From Flavobacterium hydrocarbonoxydans (GTDB taxonomy: Bacteria; Bacteroidota; Bacteroidia; Flavobacteriales; Flavobacteriaceae): a stretch of DNA of 64,000 bases. The stretch covers positions 124,001-188,000 of the forward strand of contig NZ_WSTB01000009.1 of NCBI RefSeq assembly GCF_009789235.1, in the 5' to 3' direction. The translations under genes were made by a program, and so were the position numbers. The notes under the pieces were generated by a model. The model saw nothing but the letters and a program-made list of their open reading frames with translations. It made no database searches and was not told where the DNA came from. Of this stretch, positions 13,677 through 55,510 are shown in pieces (the first letter of the stretch is position 1; each line of letters starts with the position of its first letter).

Positions 13677-14966
13677 ATGAGTGAAAAAAAAGATATTCCG
13701 CCTGATGCTACTACCTTACCCGAACGTACAAAAGCAAATCATAATGATGAATTGCTGCTTGTAAACAAAAGACTTGCCCAGCAAATAAAAAACCGGAACA
13801 AACGTGCTGCTGAACTAATTATCGCAAATGCCGAACTGGCTTATCAAAATGAAGAGAAAGAAAAACGGGCTGCAGAATTAGTTATAGCCAATACCGAACT
13901 TGCCTATCAGAACGAAGAGAAAGAGAAACGTGCAGCCGAACTGGTCATCGCTAATAATGAACTTCTTTTTCAAAACAAAGAAAAAGAAAAACGGGCAGCG
14001 GAACTGGTTATAGCCAATACCGAACTGGCTTATCAAAATAAAGAAAAAGAAGACCGAGCTGCGGAACTTGTTATTGCCAATGAAGAACTGACTTCCCTGA
14101 ATATAGAAAAAGAAAAACGGGCTGCGGAACTTGTAATTGCCAACAAAGAACTGGCTTATCAAAATAAGGAAAAAGAAAAACTTGCAGCAGAACTTCTTAT
14201 AGCCAATGCCGAACTGGTTTTTCAGAACAATGAAAAAGAAAAACGGGCTGCCGAATTAATCTTAGCCAACAATGAGCTGGAAGCTTTTACCTATATATCC
14301 AGTCATCATTTACAGGAACCTTTACGAAAAATACAGGTTTTTTCGAACCGAATTGTTACTGATGAAAGTCAAAATTTAACCGAAAAAGGAAGATTTTATT
14401 TTGACCGTATGAAAGTTTCGGCTTCGCACATGCAGGCGCTTATAAATGATTTACTGACCTATTCCCGAACCAGTGTAACGGAAAAGAAATTTGAAAACAC
14501 AAATCTTAATGATATTATAAATACAGTCATTAAAGATCTGGAAGAAGAAATCACAGCAAAAAAAGCGATTATCGAAATATCCGGAAATTGTCGTGCTTAT
14601 ATAATTCCAACACAGTTTCACCAGTTAATCTGCAATCTGGTAAGCAATTCTCTTAAATTTTCGACTGAAGATAAAGCACCGCATATACGTATAGAAAGTC
14701 TTTATACGAAACCAAAAGCAATCAAAAAATCATCCTCTGATTATTGCCACATAACCATTAGCGATAACGGCATTGGATTTGAACCTCAGTTCGAAAGTCG
14801 TGTTTTCGAAATGTTTCAGCAACTTAATAGTAAATCCGATTATAAAGGAACCGGAATTGGCCTTGCGATCGTAAAAAAAATTGTAGAAAACCATAACGGA
14901 GTCATTACAGCTACAGGAAAACTACACCATGGAGCTAAATTTGACATTTATATTCCAACAGCATAA
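13677..14966 (+). CDS. Sensor-less histidine kinase with eight 21-residue coiled-coil repeats
   Basis: This 429-residue protein has no signal peptide or membrane span, so it is cytoplasmic. Residues ~43-205 consist of eight near-identical 21-residue units of the type EKEKRAAELVIANTELAYQN, predicted to form one long coiled coil. A HisKA domain follows with the phospho-accepting His in SSHHLQEPL near 210. The HATPase domain carries the N box NLVSNSLKF, G1 DNGIGFEP and G2 GTGIGLAIVKK. There is no PAS, GAF or other sensor domain and no response regulator gene beside it. The coiled coil may couple it to a partner or set its dimer register. Confidence 0.85.
   Translation: MSEKKDIPPDATTLPERTKANHNDELLLVNKRLAQQIKNRNKRAAELIIANAELAYQNEEKEKRAAELVIANTELAYQNEEKEKRAAELVIANNELLFQNKEKEKRAAELVIANTELAYQNKEKEDRAAELVIANEELTSLNIEKEKRAAELVIANKELAYQNKEKEKLAAELLIANAELVFQNNEKEKRAAELILANNELEAFTYISSHHLQEPLRKIQVFSNRIVTDESQNLTEKGRFYFDRMKVSASHMQALINDLLTYSRTSVTEKKFENTNLNDIINTVIKDLEEEITAKKAIIEISGNCRAYIIPTQFHQLICNLVSNSLKFSTEDKAPHIRIESLYTKPKAIKKSSSDYCHITISDNGIGFEPQFESRVFEMFQQLNSKSDYKGTGIGLAIVKKIVENHNGVITATGKLHHGAKFDIYIPTA
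13803..14282 (+). repeat. 63-bp tandem repeats within the histidine kinase gene
   Basis: Eight units of about 63 bp encode variants of RAAELVIANTELAYQNEEKEK. The units differ mainly at third codon positions and in the residues after IAN. The array can expand or contract in whole units without shifting the frame. Confidence 0.85.
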
Positions 14967-14970
14967 TAAA

Positions 14971-15001
14971 AAAGCCTTTTGTGTGATTCACAAAAGGCTT
15001 T
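14971..15001. terminator. Bidirectional terminator after the histidine kinase
   Basis: The stem AAAGCCTTTTGTG / CACAAAAGGCTTT (13 bp) lies right after the kinase stop codon. It stands 5 bp before the tRNA-end copy at 15006, so before the islet inserted it was probably also the terminator of tRNA-Ser. Confidence 0.7.
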
Positions 15002-15100
15002 CAGAAGAGAGGAAGGGATTTTCTTTGCCATCCAATTACTTTATAAAACATTGGTTTTCAACCTTATTTTAACTGGAAATTTAGCTATTTTTCATCATTT

Positions 15101-15120
15101 TTGACACAAATATGACACAG
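15101..15120 (+). repeat. Border repeat of the islet, left copy
   Basis: TTGACACAAATATGACACAG contains TGACACA-like half sites 10 bp apart and matches the right copy at 18 of 20 positions in the same orientation. It may be an integrase arm-type site. Confidence 0.5.
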
Positions 15121-15155
15121 GTCAAAAGCTAAATAATAAACTTATTTATGCTATT

Positions 15156-17129
15156 TTAAATAAATAAATCATCTCCGTAGTGTTCTTTCTGAAATTCTTG
15201 AACGCCATCTACATCATTCAAATATTCCATTAACTCCTTAAGTACAATAACATGAAATTTAGTATTTCCTGAAGTTAGCAAATGCGTAATTCCATGAAAA
15301 TCTCTCTGATGTAGATTATCAAGATCTAAATAGGAGATAGCTTCATAATTTTTCTTCCATTCTGTACCCATTTCCCATGTTATTGCCAAATGAATATCTT
15401 TTTCGGACTTATATTCACTTTCAAATTCACGAATCAATGCATCTAAATTATATTTGTACTCTAACACTTTTGGAGGACTCGTAAACTCACTTGAATGATG
15501 TAGTTCTTCTACACCTAATGGATTATTTTCCTTATTATAGACATGATTTTTCAAAGGATTTTTAACAACAAATTTAAAAATTCCATCGTACTGCTTGACT
15601 TGACTTGTTGCAAGAAGATTAATTCCCCTGATAACACCCCCTGCAATCAATTGATTGAATAAAACTACTGTATCCTGTTCTGACTGTGGCTCAGATGTTA
15701 TAGAAATTTCATTTATAGGCGCAAAAAAATTTTTATTTGTTAGTTTAAGTGGAAACTTTGTTTCATGTTCAACTTGTGCTACTATCCACTGATGAAGATT
15801 AATTTCTTTAGCTATATCAGGTTTGGCACCAGTATCAGATTTTAAAAGTATTTTCCAACTCTTAAACCTATTTACAATTGCTACTGAAAGTTTTTCTGCT
15901 TGATCTTTTAATTCAGGTTGAAATCCCTTTCTACCTAGATCTGGGTCAGCGTCTTTAAAATGTACGATAATGTGACACTGATTTTGATATCCAATATTAG
16001 ATGTAAGTGGTATTGCAATTAGTTCACCTTGGATCATTTTATTATTGGCTAATTGCAATCCTCCTCGTAAAACTCTATAACCTTTTCGAAGATTCGCTAT
16101 TGAATCATTAAATTGGTCCCAAACGGCAGTTGAATAAGTAAAATATCCATACGCTTCAACTTTATACAATTTAATTATTTCATTAAATTCTTCATCATTT
16201 TTTCGGAATTTAAGTATCTCATCAGTCGTGAAAAATTCATATATCCCGTTTGCCCTTTTAAATCTACTCGGTATCGCAGATGAATCCCTTCCGGCTTCAA
16301 TTGCTTTTGTTTGGTACATTAAAACTTCTTTAAGACTGTTACTTGCTTTAATTGCGTTATGCGGGAAAATATACGCTGCATTAATGTCTTTTAAAGTATT
16401 TAAAGTTCCATCTTTTTTCACAACATTTAAATCAAATACTATTGGCGTCGTATCGTCGTTATCAATATATTTTATAGAACCTAGAGGAGTCTTAAGTAAA
16501 AGCAAATGAAACCACTGCTCAGGAGTTTTTGCTGTATACCATGATAAATCCTTCGGTCTTATATTATCACCTTCAAATATAATTTTAAATGTGGCTCCTC
16601 TTTTTATCTGATCAAAATATGGATTTCTATCAATACATTCTGTTACTACTGGTCTAGTTTTAATACCTTTAAAATCTTCTACCCAATCTCTTCCACCTAC
16701 TAATTTCCCTTTGAATTCATGCCCATTTCCTTTAGTTCCAAATTCTAAATAATTAAATCCATAACCAATATATGTAGAACCTACACCCTTATTTCCTCGT
16801 GTTTTTTCTCCGTCTTTGTATGAGATATTCGGCGCAAGAAATGATTTAAACTCTTTTTCATTAAATCCGATACCATTATCAGCGATCGTAAACGAGTTTT
16901 CGGCTAAATTTATTTCAATCCAAATCTTTTTAATATAATCCTTTTCTTTTAAATCCTTCTCTCTTTTATCAACTGCATCCATTGAATTTTGGATAAGTTC
17001 TGAGAATGAATCATATTTACCTACATATGATTTAAGAATGTTTTTAATCTCTCTTTTTTGCGCTGCTGAAACAACTTCCGTATCAGTTACTTTACTAGTA
17101 ACAAGAGGATCCCAAGAATTATTTTCCAT
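15156..17129 (-). CDS. Large GHKL-fold ATPase (HSP90/MORC-like N-terminus), candidate defence protein
   Basis: This 657-residue protein has an N-terminal Bergerat ATP-binding fold: Glu44 and Asn48 in FSELIQNSMDAVD, the DNGIG loop at Asp84-Gly88 (TIADNGIGFN), and the lid glycines in GNKGVGSTYIGYG (about 112-124). The region after about 230 has no motif I can name. It lacks the phospho-acceptor domain of histidine kinases and the topoisomerase parts of gyrase. GHKL ATPases of this size stand in several bacterial defence systems, and this one is the only gene of a tRNA-Ser islet. The defence role is inference from fold and place; ATP binding is well supported. Confidence 0.7.
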   Translation of the reverse strand: MENNSWDPLVTSKVTDTEVVSAAQKREIKNILKSYVGKYDSFSELIQNSMDAVDKREKDLKEKDYIKKIWIEINLAENSFTIADNGIGFNEKEFKSFLAPNISYKDGEKTRGNKGVGSTYIGYGFNYLEFGTKGNGHEFKGKLVGGRDWVEDFKGIKTRPVVTECIDRNPYFDQIKRGATFKIIFEGDNIRPKDLSWYTAKTPEQWFHLLLLKTPLGSIKYIDNDDTTPIVFDLNVVKKDGTLNTLKDINAAYIFPHNAIKASNSLKEVLMYQTKAIEAGRDSSAIPSRFKRANGIYEFFTTDEILKFRKNDEEFNEIIKLYKVEAYGYFTYSTAVWDQFNDSIANLRKGYRVLRGGLQLANNKMIQGELIAIPLTSNIGYQNQCHIIVHFKDADPDLGRKGFQPELKDQAEKLSVAIVNRFKSWKILLKSDTGAKPDIAKEINLHQWIVAQVEHETKFPLKLTNKNFFAPINEISITSEPQSEQDTVVLFNQLIAGGVIRGINLLATSQVKQYDGIFKFVVKNPLKNHVYNKENNPLGVEELHHSSEFTSPPKVLEYKYNLDALIREFESEYKSEKDIHLAITWEMGTEWKKNYEAISYLDLDNLHQRDFHGITHLLTSGNTKFHVIVLKELMEYLNDVDGVQEFQKEHYGDDLFI

Positions 17130-17379
17130 AATATATTTTTAATTAATTTTTGATTCTACTTATACCCCCTTCTAATCAGTTTTACGTATTTGTAATGGTA
17201 ATTAAATAATTTCAGTCGTAGTAAAACTACAATAATAAAGTTAATTTAAAGTAGCAATTATTTATGATTAAAATAACGAAAGAAAACAAAAGTATTTAAG
17301 AAGTCAGCCGAATAAGAGCGGGAACTCGCAGCCTTTCTATAAAAAAAGTTGACACAGATTTGACACAGCATTTTTATAA
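17130..17379. other. Intergenic part of the islet
   Basis: About 250 bp lie between the ATPase start and the tRNA terminator. They hold no ORF of note. The right border repeat lies within, and a small GC-richer patch near 17318-17333 (GAGCGGGAACTCGC) can form a short hairpin. The ATPase promoter should be here but I do not see a clear TAnnTTTG. Confidence 0.4.
17349..17368 (+). repeat. Border repeat of the islet, right copy
   Basis: TTGACACAGATTTGACACAG is the partner of the copy at 15101-15120 and lies 58 bp from the tRNA-end sequence. Confidence 0.5.
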
Positions 17380-17423
17380 AAAATCTCGCTAACTTAAATG
17401 TTTTAAAGGGTTAGCGAGATTTT
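17380..17423 (-). terminator. Terminator of tRNA-Ser
   Basis: A perfect 14-bp stem (AAAATCTCGCTAAC / GTTAGCGAGATTTT) starts 3 nt past the tRNA 3' end, with T residues following on the minus strand. It is probably brought in by the islet to replace the terminator it displaced. Confidence 0.8.
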
Positions 17424-17425
17424 TG

Positions 17426-17512
17426 CAGAGAGGAAGGGATTCGAACCCTCGATACAGTTACCCATATACTAGCTTTCCAGGCTAGCTCCTTCAACCACTC
17501 GGACACCTCTCT
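17426..17512 (-). tRNA. tRNA-Ser (anticodon GGA)
   Basis: This 87-nt gene folds as a class II tRNA. The acceptor AGAGAGG pairs with CCTCTCT, the anticodon stem CTAGC/GCTAG encloses a loop CTGGAAA with anticodon GGA, a long variable arm is present, and the T arm contains GGTTCGAATCC. The discriminator is G and CCA is not encoded. It serves as the integration site of the islet at 15006-17441. Confidence 0.93.
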
Positions 17513-17570: not shown

Positions 17571-18443
17571 TTACATACTTTTTCTAAATTCTTCTATAAA
17601 TAAATTTACTGCCTTTTTTTGATACGTTCCATCGATCGTAAGTATAAACGAATCACGCTTGGTATCGACGCCAACAATCTGAATGGCTTTCAGGTTATTC
17701 CAGTCTCTCAGGGCTTTTTCAGTTACAATTGTAGCCCAGTCACTAGCTTCTACCAATCGCAAAAGTGCATGAACCGCATTTAATTCTATCGAAACTTTGG
17801 GCTTCATATTGTTTTTTAAAAACAACTCATCTAAAAATTCCCGTGAGTTAAATCCTTTTACGGGCAAAATAAGCGGAATATTTTCTATTTTTTTAAATTC
17901 GATTTTATCCAAAACCGCCAATTCATGTGTTTTTGAAACGGCCATTACCAATTTTGAAGTAAACAGTGGAATTTTTTGAAAAGGAAGTTCAATTTCATTT
18001 GACGAAATAACCAAAACCAAATCAAGTTCGTTGTTTAATAATTTTTTTTCCAAAGGCTCTGTGGTTCCATATTCAACCACAATTTTTAAATTCGGATAGG
18101 TTTTAGCGAATGAATTCACAATGGGCAAAACCAAAAGTCCAAAAATATACGTAACGCCAATTCGTAATTCTCCTCCAATCATTTGGTTCAAATCATCAAT
18201 AGCCTGTTTCCCGCTTTGTACATTTTCGATAATCTGCCTGGCATGAATCAGGAAAACAGATCCTGCTTCGGTCAGTTTTACTTTTTTACCAATCCTAACA
18301 AACAAAGGCATTCCGAGTTCTTCTTCGAGTTTTTTTATTTGCTGAGACAATCCGGATTGGGTTACAAAACACAATTCGGCTGCTCTTGTAAAATGAAGCA
18401 CCTCAGCTGTTTTTATAAAATACTGCAATTGATAGATTTCCAT
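17571..18443 (-). CDS. LysR-type transcriptional regulator
   Basis: This 290-residue protein has an N-terminal winged helix-turn-helix (1-60: LQYFIKTAEVLHFTRAAELC, SGLSQQIKKLEEELG) and a substrate-binding domain from about 90 on (IGGELRIGVTYIFG). It is divergent from the MFS transporter at 18534 with 90 bp between starts, the usual layout of a LysR protein controlling its neighbour. The ligand is unknown. Confidence 0.9.
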   Translation of the reverse strand: MEIYQLQYFIKTAEVLHFTRAAELCFVTQSGLSQQIKKLEEELGMPLFVRIGKKVKLTEAGSVFLIHARQIIENVQSGKQAIDDLNQMIGGELRIGVTYIFGLLVLPIVNSFAKTYPNLKIVVEYGTTEPLEKKLLNNELDLVLVISSNEIELPFQKIPLFTSKLVMAVSKTHELAVLDKIEFKKIENIPLILPVKGFNSREFLDELFLKNNMKPKVSIELNAVHALLRLVEASDWATIVTEKALRDWNNLKAIQIVGVDTKRDSFILTIDGTYQKKAVNLFIEEFRKSM

Positions 18444-19838: not shown

Positions 19839-19923
19839 AGCTAATCCCGCTATCCGTTGCAATCTTTTGTTTTTTAAAGAAAAAAACAAAAGGATTTCCA
19901 CTCCTATCGGGGCTAGGGCATTC
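19839..19923 (+). repeat. Dispersed hairpin element, copy A
   Basis: This copy starts AGCTAATCCCGCTATCCGTT and ends TATCGGGGCTAGGGCATTCG, with a variable hairpin (AATCTTTTGTTTTTT... AAAAAACAAAAGGATT) between. The same end blocks, around a different hairpin, occur at 55441-55510. It lies between two convergent genes. The stretch after it (to 20016) holds more GC-rich filler (CCCGGGCGATAGCGAACAGG) but no gene. Confidence 0.7.
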
Positions 19924-55440: not shown

Positions 55441-55510
55441 AGCTAATCCTGCTATCCGTTTCTCCCGATGAAAAATCGGGATCCACTACTATCAGGGCTA
55501 GGGCACTCGT
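55441..55510 (+). repeat. Dispersed hairpin element, copy B, inside the nuo operon
   Basis: This copy starts AGCTAATCCTGCTATCCGTT and ends TATCAGGGCTAGGGCACTCG, with the hairpin TCCCGAT-GAAAA-ATCGGGA between. The end blocks match copy A at 19839-19923 with few changes while the hairpin is unrelated in sequence. It lies in the nuoH-nuoI gap and will be transcribed in reverse orientation. Confidence 0.7.

Follow-up and report, generated by a model that had tools for sequence, protein, structure and literature searches.

A 64,000-nucleotide stretch of Flavobacterium hydrocarbonoxydans DNA (contig NZ_WSTB01000009.1, forward-strand positions 124,001 to 188,000; hereafter the window) was analyzed around a tRNA-Ser(GGA) gene, beside which a 2.4-kb insert (the islet) carries a single intact gene for a 657-residue GHKL protein. 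The islet is bordered by a kinase-like gene on one side and by the tRNA gene on the other (Table 1). A preliminary description, prepared from the letters of the window, had listed the tRNA-Ser, a 15-bp distal copy of its 3' end, two terminator-like hairpins and the lone open reading frame (ORF), and all of these were recovered at their places. As described there, the cargo is a single gene, one ORF filling the insert.

Boundaries and attachment sites of the islet

The 15-bp core AGAGAGGAAGGGATT is present in the window as two exact copies only, one at each end of the islet. With up to 2 mismatches allowed the count was still 2, versus 0.07 expected, and 0 of 100 shuffles reached 2; within 5 kb, approximately 3e-6 copies of a 15-mer are expected. 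For the comparison with relatives, the tRNA and the LysR-type gene were used together as a query, giving matches in 242 of 249 genus genomes (many over the tRNA end only), and 40 genus loci were read on the kinase side of the tRNA, 12-19 kb each. A kinase homologue was present in 8 of the 40. Two of these 8 (G142 and G147) have an empty site, in which the kinase alignment stops 47 and 45 nt, respectively, from the tRNA 3' end; the insert was therefore placed from approximately 15006 to 17426. Alignment of G142 across the joined flanks of the window required a single 1-nt gap, and a hairpin similar to the one that follows the kinase gene adjoins the tRNA in this genome. The islet is real and well-bounded. 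Distal copies of the tRNA end are not unique to the islet's own genome: in 3 of the 40 genus loci (G240, G042 and G255) the 17-nt tRNA end recurs with ≤2 mismatches, with other cargo between.

Inside each end of the islet lies a tandem direct repeat of TTGACACA type, which was treated as an arm-type site and described by the 18-bp pattern TGACACANNTNTGACACA. In the 5.05-Mb genome this pattern occurs in 2 copies only, both at the islet ends, against approximately 0.01 (0.011) expected per genome. An exact scan for the arm across 398 genus genomes matched 9, with two copies in 4 (the islet's own genome, G304, G258 and G222), and a one-mismatch scan across 329 genus genomes matched 28, with a same-contig, same-strand pair <50 kb apart in 5 (the same four and G160). 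All 5 pairs are located at tRNA-Ser(GGA). In G304, G258, G222 and G160 an integrase gene adjoins the tRNA-side arm, the integrases of the latter three being 50-52% identical to that of G304. Single arms were found at the same tRNA-Ser in G290, G354 and G108, and a related integrase stands beside the arm in 6 of the 8 genomes with arms at this tRNA, the exceptions being the islet itself and G108. Other single matches of the one-mismatch scan were examined for tRNA genes and related integrases only. At the family level, an exact scan with the pattern one base longer at each end matched the islet's own genome only (1/397, 394 of these being from other genera).

The preliminary description had suggested looking for other cargo at the same site, and such cargo was found at this tRNA-Ser. 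The occupants are a 42-kb prophage with a tape measure gene, a weak portal match and an integrase (G258), an 8-kb island carrying restriction-modification genes of DpnII type (G304), a 16.5-kb island with VgrG/baseplate-like and ArdC-like genes (G222), and a 25.8-kb element, of which the integrase and approximately 9 kb of the tRNA side were read (G160). Arm matches were also obtained in 16 viral-contig stretches; only L148 and L151 have a related integrase within the stretch, and the other 14 were dropped. On L148 (42 kb, 10 kb read), arm, core and arm lie in this order within 202 bp, adjoining an integrase gene whose product is 51.6% identical to the G304 integrase, and the contig also has a tape-measure gene; this arrangement is an uncut phage attachment site (attP). 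The first 21 nt of the islet (15006-15026) have the same sequence as the core of this attP.

The spacings agree closely. The distance from arm to tRNA is 57 bp in the islet versus 57, 56, 55 and 56 bp in the four integrase-bearing elements and 57 bp in the L148 attP, and the distance from core to distal arm is 81 bp versus 82, 90, 80 and 90 bp in three integrase-bearing elements (all but G160) and the L148 attP. A direct repeat of the tRNA 3' end flanks both islet ends, as expected of an integrative element of the TTGACACA-arm type at this tRNA (phage L148, G258, G304, G222 and G160), and the islet has the paired tandem arms of this group, at 55-57 bp and 80-90 bp from the cores. Because arms, cores and spacings match those of the elements and of the L148 attP, the islet has every attachment feature of this integrase family; by sequence, each of its ends is one half of a temperate-phage-type attP. 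Site-specific integration, proposed in the preliminary description, is thus borne out by the empty sites, the arm sites and a phage attP of the same design, with the amendment that the footprint belongs to a temperate-phage-type integrase, for which the islet has no gene.

Two side observations concern the arms. In L151 (9492-9643) a related integrase (40%) and the same arm motif were found, but the tRNA is a tRNA-Met, so the motif is kept even when the target changes. In L148 (9200-9560) a conserved TTGnTTnTCAA-like stretch, partly common to the islet and three elements, lies between the core and the distal arm and is possibly an accessory-factor site.

No tyrosine integrase gene, which full elements carry just inside the tRNA-proximal arm, was found in the islet, nor was any integrase remnant detected there below E 0.05 with four integrases of this family as queries. 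The islet was therefore filed as a non-autonomous derivative and not as a full member. Both attachment sites are kept and the recombinase, presumably once present, is gone, as in CIME-like or hitcher elements. Such dependence is known from cis-mobilizable elements (CIMEs; PMC5704250) and from clusters of attC sites lacking integrases (CALINs) and miniature inverted-repeat transposable elements (MITEs), which have recombination sites without their own recombinase (PMC11389934). The islet resembles all three in that sites are kept, the recombinase is lost and movement would depend on a helper; unlike them, its sites are of the temperate-phage/island integrase type, with nothing seen that ties them to an ICE, integron or transposon, and it is one gene long. 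Riemerella phage RAP44 is a flavobacterial temperate phage that integrates at a short repeat downstream of a tRNA, with its integrase gene just inside (PMC9745183); it differs in being a complete element (record of 49,329 bp), and its integrase is 24.7% identical to that of L148.

Table 1. Features of the islet and its flanks, in positions of the window
Feature	Positions	Strand	Remarks
Flanking kinase-like gene	13677-14966	+	ORF; kinase by eye; chromosomal side of the insertion
Terminator-like hairpin, perfect 13-bp inverted repeat	14971-15001		3' of the kinase gene, just outside the islet
Distal attachment core AGAGAGGAAGGGATT	15006-15020	+	Exact copy of the tRNA-Ser 3' end
Distal arm-type site TGACACAAATATGACACA	15102-15119	+	81 bp from the core
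Sole cargo gene, 657 aa	15156-17129	-	GHKL ATPase, middle domain, probable PD-(D/E)xK nuclease domain
C-terminal part, approximately residues 460-657	15159-15752	-	E484, D515, E557-x-K559
GHKL (Bergerat) part, approximately residues 1-230	16440-17129	-	E44/N48/D51, D84-x-G86-x-G88, G112-G117
tRNA-proximal arm-type site TGACACAGATTTGACACA	17350-17367	+	57 bp from the tRNA 3' end
Terminator-like hairpin, perfect 15-bp inverted repeat	17379-17424		Supplied by the islet, downstream of the tRNA
tRNA-Ser(GGA)	17425-17512	-	Integration target, left intact; ARAGORN and Rfam RF00005
tRNA-side attachment core AGAGAGGAAGGGATT	17427-17441	+
LysR-type regulator gene	17571-18443	-	By eye; neighbor of the tRNA

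The GHKL protein and its homologues

The N-terminal part was assigned to the GHKL superfamily, with the N box, G1 and G2 motifs intact and a Pfam match to HATPase_c_3 just over the cut-off (26.3 versus 25 bits). The middle domain may be S5-like. The C-terminal part, which the preliminary description had left unassigned, is tentatively put down as a probable PD-(D/E)xK nuclease domain on its conserved residues and predicted model; fold searches gave weak results. E484, D515, E557 and K559 (motif assigned by eye) are invariant in 7 of 7 aligned family members, down to 36% identity, and are also kept in a Rhizobium protein in a separate alignment. Of two more distant proteins, one from Halobacterium (25% identical) retains E..D..ExK and one from G1071 retains D..ExK, its first Glu being shifted by one alignment position. 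The C-terminal model (predicted local distance difference test, pLDDT, 77.3; predicted template modeling score, pTM, 0.78) has the order helix-strand-strand-strand-helix-strand; E484 begins a helix, D515 begins a strand and E557-K559 lie in the strand after that, beyond which come a helix and another strand. This order of elements fits a PD-(D/E)xK core. The best structural match of the model (VIA) was EndoMS, with a low Z of 4.2 and a root-mean-square deviation of 3.2 over 90 residues. Upstream of the gene, a strict Bacteroidota-type promoter was not found, and there were two loose matches only.

For the distribution of the gene, relatives, a phylum set, plasmids and viral contigs were compared. 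The preliminary description had named two findings that would speak against its proposal, namely a gene universal in the genus and a gene found at unrelated places without the 15-bp copy. The gene is far from universal, with a match in 0 of 99 relatives (60 from the same genus); homologues do occur elsewhere, which does not overturn the islet or the idea of defence. The phylum scan matched 44 of 395 genomes, among which the islet's own genome gave the sole strong full-length match and G1071 has a distant homologue; all other matches lie within approximately residues 19-173, in the ATPase part, and two of these that were fetched (G1170 and G611) match in the ATPase domain only. Full-length homologues were found in Psychrosphaera saromensis (70%), on two Rhizobium rhizogenes plasmids (54%), on five viral contigs (67, 53, 54, 54 and 36%) and on a Halobacterium plasmid (25%). 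A nucleotide search of E. coli genomes for the phage homologue in L139 gave none.

The gene rides many vehicles, and the preliminary suggestion of a defence role gains support from its neighbors, since homologues lie beside Nsn-type, SIR2-like, methyltransferase and DISARM-like genes, or alone in P2-like tail operons. In Psychrosphaera the homologue is followed by a SIR2-like gene (PADLOC 30 bits; Pfam SIR2 below its cut-off). In Rhizobium a DISARM-like island, divergent from the homologue, holds a cytosine methyltransferase, Vsr, a UvrD-type helicase, DUF1998 and a match to DrmA. The L137 prophage has a CI repressor gene on one side of the homologue and matches to NsnC, NsnB and NsnA, a cytosine methyltransferase and an integrase on the other. 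In L138 (tail families by Pfam) and L139 (read from its ORFs) the homologue stands alone and antiparallel in a P2-like tail operon, between gpS/gpR and gpW, and in L140 it lies approximately 2 kb from a gpD-like gene, at the contig edge. Contexts were read in 4 of the 5 viral contigs (all but L142), three (L138, L139, L140) in or near structural genes and one (L137) beside a repressor. The tail-operon position differs from the P2 defence hotspot, which Rousset et al. (PMC9122126) place between gpA and gpQ. The gene adjoining the Halobacterium homologue reads by eye as a cytosine methyltransferase. In G1071 the homologue belongs to a tRNA-Arg island with a type II methyltransferase match and a gene reading by eye as an integrase; between this gene and the tRNA-Arg (L094, 4300-4700) lie tandem repeats of GGGGGTCACTTT, which are probably arm sites of another integrase. 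The islet has no methyltransferase gene, which makes a classical restriction-modification pair less likely and favors a sensor that would work without host marking, but several homologues stand close to methyltransferase genes, so either may apply.

Known systems were compared in turn. For Tiamat (TmtA in PADLOC), a lone GHKL defence gene, the match covered residues 44-117 only (22 bits, 70 of 1782 profile positions), and matches of the homologues were likewise short; the likeness is that of a lone GHKL ATPase gene. HtpG/Hsp90 profiles gave 26-27 bits versus cut-offs of 371-455, over residues 44-99 only. For Shedu (SduA), there was no Pfam match to SduA_C/DUF4263, and comparison of the 7-row C-terminal alignment by HHalign with 9 SduA proteins of Flavobacterium, which are few and similar sequences and a weak basis for remote kinship, gave a probability of 0.2%. 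By these sequence tests the islet protein is neither Shedu nor Tiamat. The stretch that by eye comes nearest to the MORC motif GhXhhpXXRhl, GLQLANNKMIQ, has the invariant M365 in place of the MORC Arg. VcSduA is a GHKL-type Shedu (type I-D) in which E27A and K557A each abolish defence (PMC12137116), and standalone paraMORC3 genes have been described in proteobacteria and Bacteroidetes (Iyer et al. 2008, PMC2292703). The islet protein is like both in being a single protein with an N-terminal GHKL ATPase, a C-terminal PD-(D/E)xK-type nuclease (probable in the islet protein) and a patchy distribution; unlike in VcSduA, its C-terminal domain is not SduA_C/DUF4263. The C-terminal E-D-ExK motif of paraMORC3-type proteins was found in it by eye, and it may be akin to the published members. 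The gene is single, as the preliminary description had said; "new single-protein system" was too strong, because single-gene GHKL-nuclease defence has already been published for VcSduA (PMC12137116) and has predicted relatives in paraMORC3 (PMC2292703). There are known precedents on both counts, for an integrase-less hitchhiker with phage sites and for a GHKL-nuclease protein. In searches limited to the open-licence PubMed Central (PMC) literature, nothing was tied to this protein family beyond general GHKL/paraMORC papers, and nothing to integrase-less islets with phage arm sites; both are weak negatives.

Vehicle and function of the islet

The best explanation, held to be moderately probable, is a non-autonomous islet with both halves of a phage attP, carrying a single-gene GHKL ATPase-nuclease that is a candidate for defence; anti-phage activity and mobilization in trans would follow from it. 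A tyrosine integrase of a phage or island with the same arms would have inserted the islet in trans; alternatively, the islet may descend from an autonomous ancestor that later lost its integrase, and a same-arm integrase could still mobilize it. On the pattern of MutL/MORC and VcSduA, the GHKL part may bind ATP and dimerize, thereby clamping DNA or a partner and allowing the C-terminal nuclease to cleave the DNA of an invading phage. The protein would act alone, with no fixed partner. The strongest form of this explanation, a minimal live hitchhiker that a phage integrase of L148/G258 type inserts and excises, with the gene founding a new stand-alone GHKL ATPase-nuclease family active against phages, possibly including the integrase donors, is considered less likely than not.

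Chance was given almost no weight as an origin of the repeat and arms beside an ordinary chromosomal gene. The 15-bp repeat alone is short, and near copies of the tRNA end recur in 3 of 40 genus loci; against this stand the low expectations for 15-mer copies and arm matches given above, and chance is refuted by the empty sites in G142 and G147 and by the same architecture in phage and islands. A far stronger rival, falling just short of an even chance, is a decayed prophage or island, in which the gene was a moron near attP, the integrase and the rest were deleted, and the islet is now immobile with the gene a domesticated leftover. It agrees with the missing integrase, with the existence of integrase-bearing elements of the same type at this tRNA-Ser, and with the L137 prophage, where the homologue has the repressor gene on one side and the integrase end on the other. 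It agrees also with G108 (L195, 1359-1519), where one arm stands 56 bp downstream of the tRNA-Ser with no element behind it, probably the scar of an arm-to-arm deletion. Set against decay, both arms, both cores, their spacing and the ORF are intact, and decay must have spared just the gene with its leader and the two attachment halves in full while deleting all else; nor does the islet hold another gene-sized ORF reading as a phage gene, or an integrase remnant. As accounts of the vehicle, decay and hitchhiking are almost equal. For the cargo, a gene that serves phage or plasmid fitness in some way other than defence (host takeover, anti-restriction or DNA repair, for example), with the defence neighbors a coincidence of clustering, is considered rather unlikely. 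Three viral-contig homologues in or near structural genes and one beside a prophage repressor speak for it, as do weak, conflicting PHROGs matches that include anti-restriction (E 0.008) and topoisomerase. Placement near SIR2-like, Nsn-type, methyltransferase and DISARM-like genes is repeated in distant hosts, however, the ATPase and putative nuclease motifs are both conserved, and the protein has the same plan as VcSduA, for which defence has been tested (PMC12137116).

Several results weigh against the favored explanation of a non-autonomous defence islet. For the vehicle, the islet is the single case found of an integrase-less element with paired arms, so the data fit the decay of a once autonomous element no less than they fit an active hitchhiker; G108, keeping an arm without an element, indicates that elements of this type do decay; and the islet's own genome has no close cognate integrase, the G304 query giving one match, 26% identical. 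For the nuclease domain, Foldseek of the C-terminal model against PDB and BFVD gave 0 significant matches at E ≤0.001, and Pfam gave no significant match in the C-terminal part of any member (best E 0.045, Exo_endo_phos2). The 8 VIA rows comprised EndoMS, a chain of the LmuAB-DNA complex, Ecl18kI, a McrBC chain and four unrelated folds; EndoMS and Ecl18kI are PD-(D/E)xK enzymes, and LmuAB and McrBC contain one. The full-length AlphaFold model was poor (pLDDT 47.9) and was not interpreted. For the defence role, the context set of approximately 9 loci is small and not independently sampled, the GHKL protein was not found in 50,697 phage records (named phages), and the Halobacterium gene has an in-frame stop.

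The locus makes it testable whether a defence gene can spread with phage attachment sites alone. If true, such spread would parallel MITEs and CALINs, with a phage integrase as the enzyme, and would account for lone, integrase-less genes at tRNA sites. It is likewise testable whether a further family of lone-acting, GHKL-gated nucleases exists, represented in Psychrosphaera and a flavobacterium-like host, on plasmids of Rhizobium and of a haloarchaeon, and in P2-like phages, the predicted catalytic residues being named for both the ATPase and the nuclease sides.

Other genes at the tRNA-Ser site and RNAs in the window

At the same tRNA-Ser, lone RhuM-family genes (PF13310) were found in 1.2-kb stretches of G240 (L115, 397-1401) and G255 (L126, 354-1343). 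Both stretches have a partial distal copy of the tRNA 3' part, with neither TGACAC arms nor an ORF reading as an integrase, and are possibly another kind of one-gene islet. In G042 (L125, 362-1180) a KilA-N gene adjoins the same tRNA-Ser, and a partial copy of the tRNA 3' part lies 4.5 kb off. Two Flavo-1 RNAs (RF01705) were identified in the window at 19839-19918 and 55441-55503, one of them 2.3 kb beyond the tRNA.

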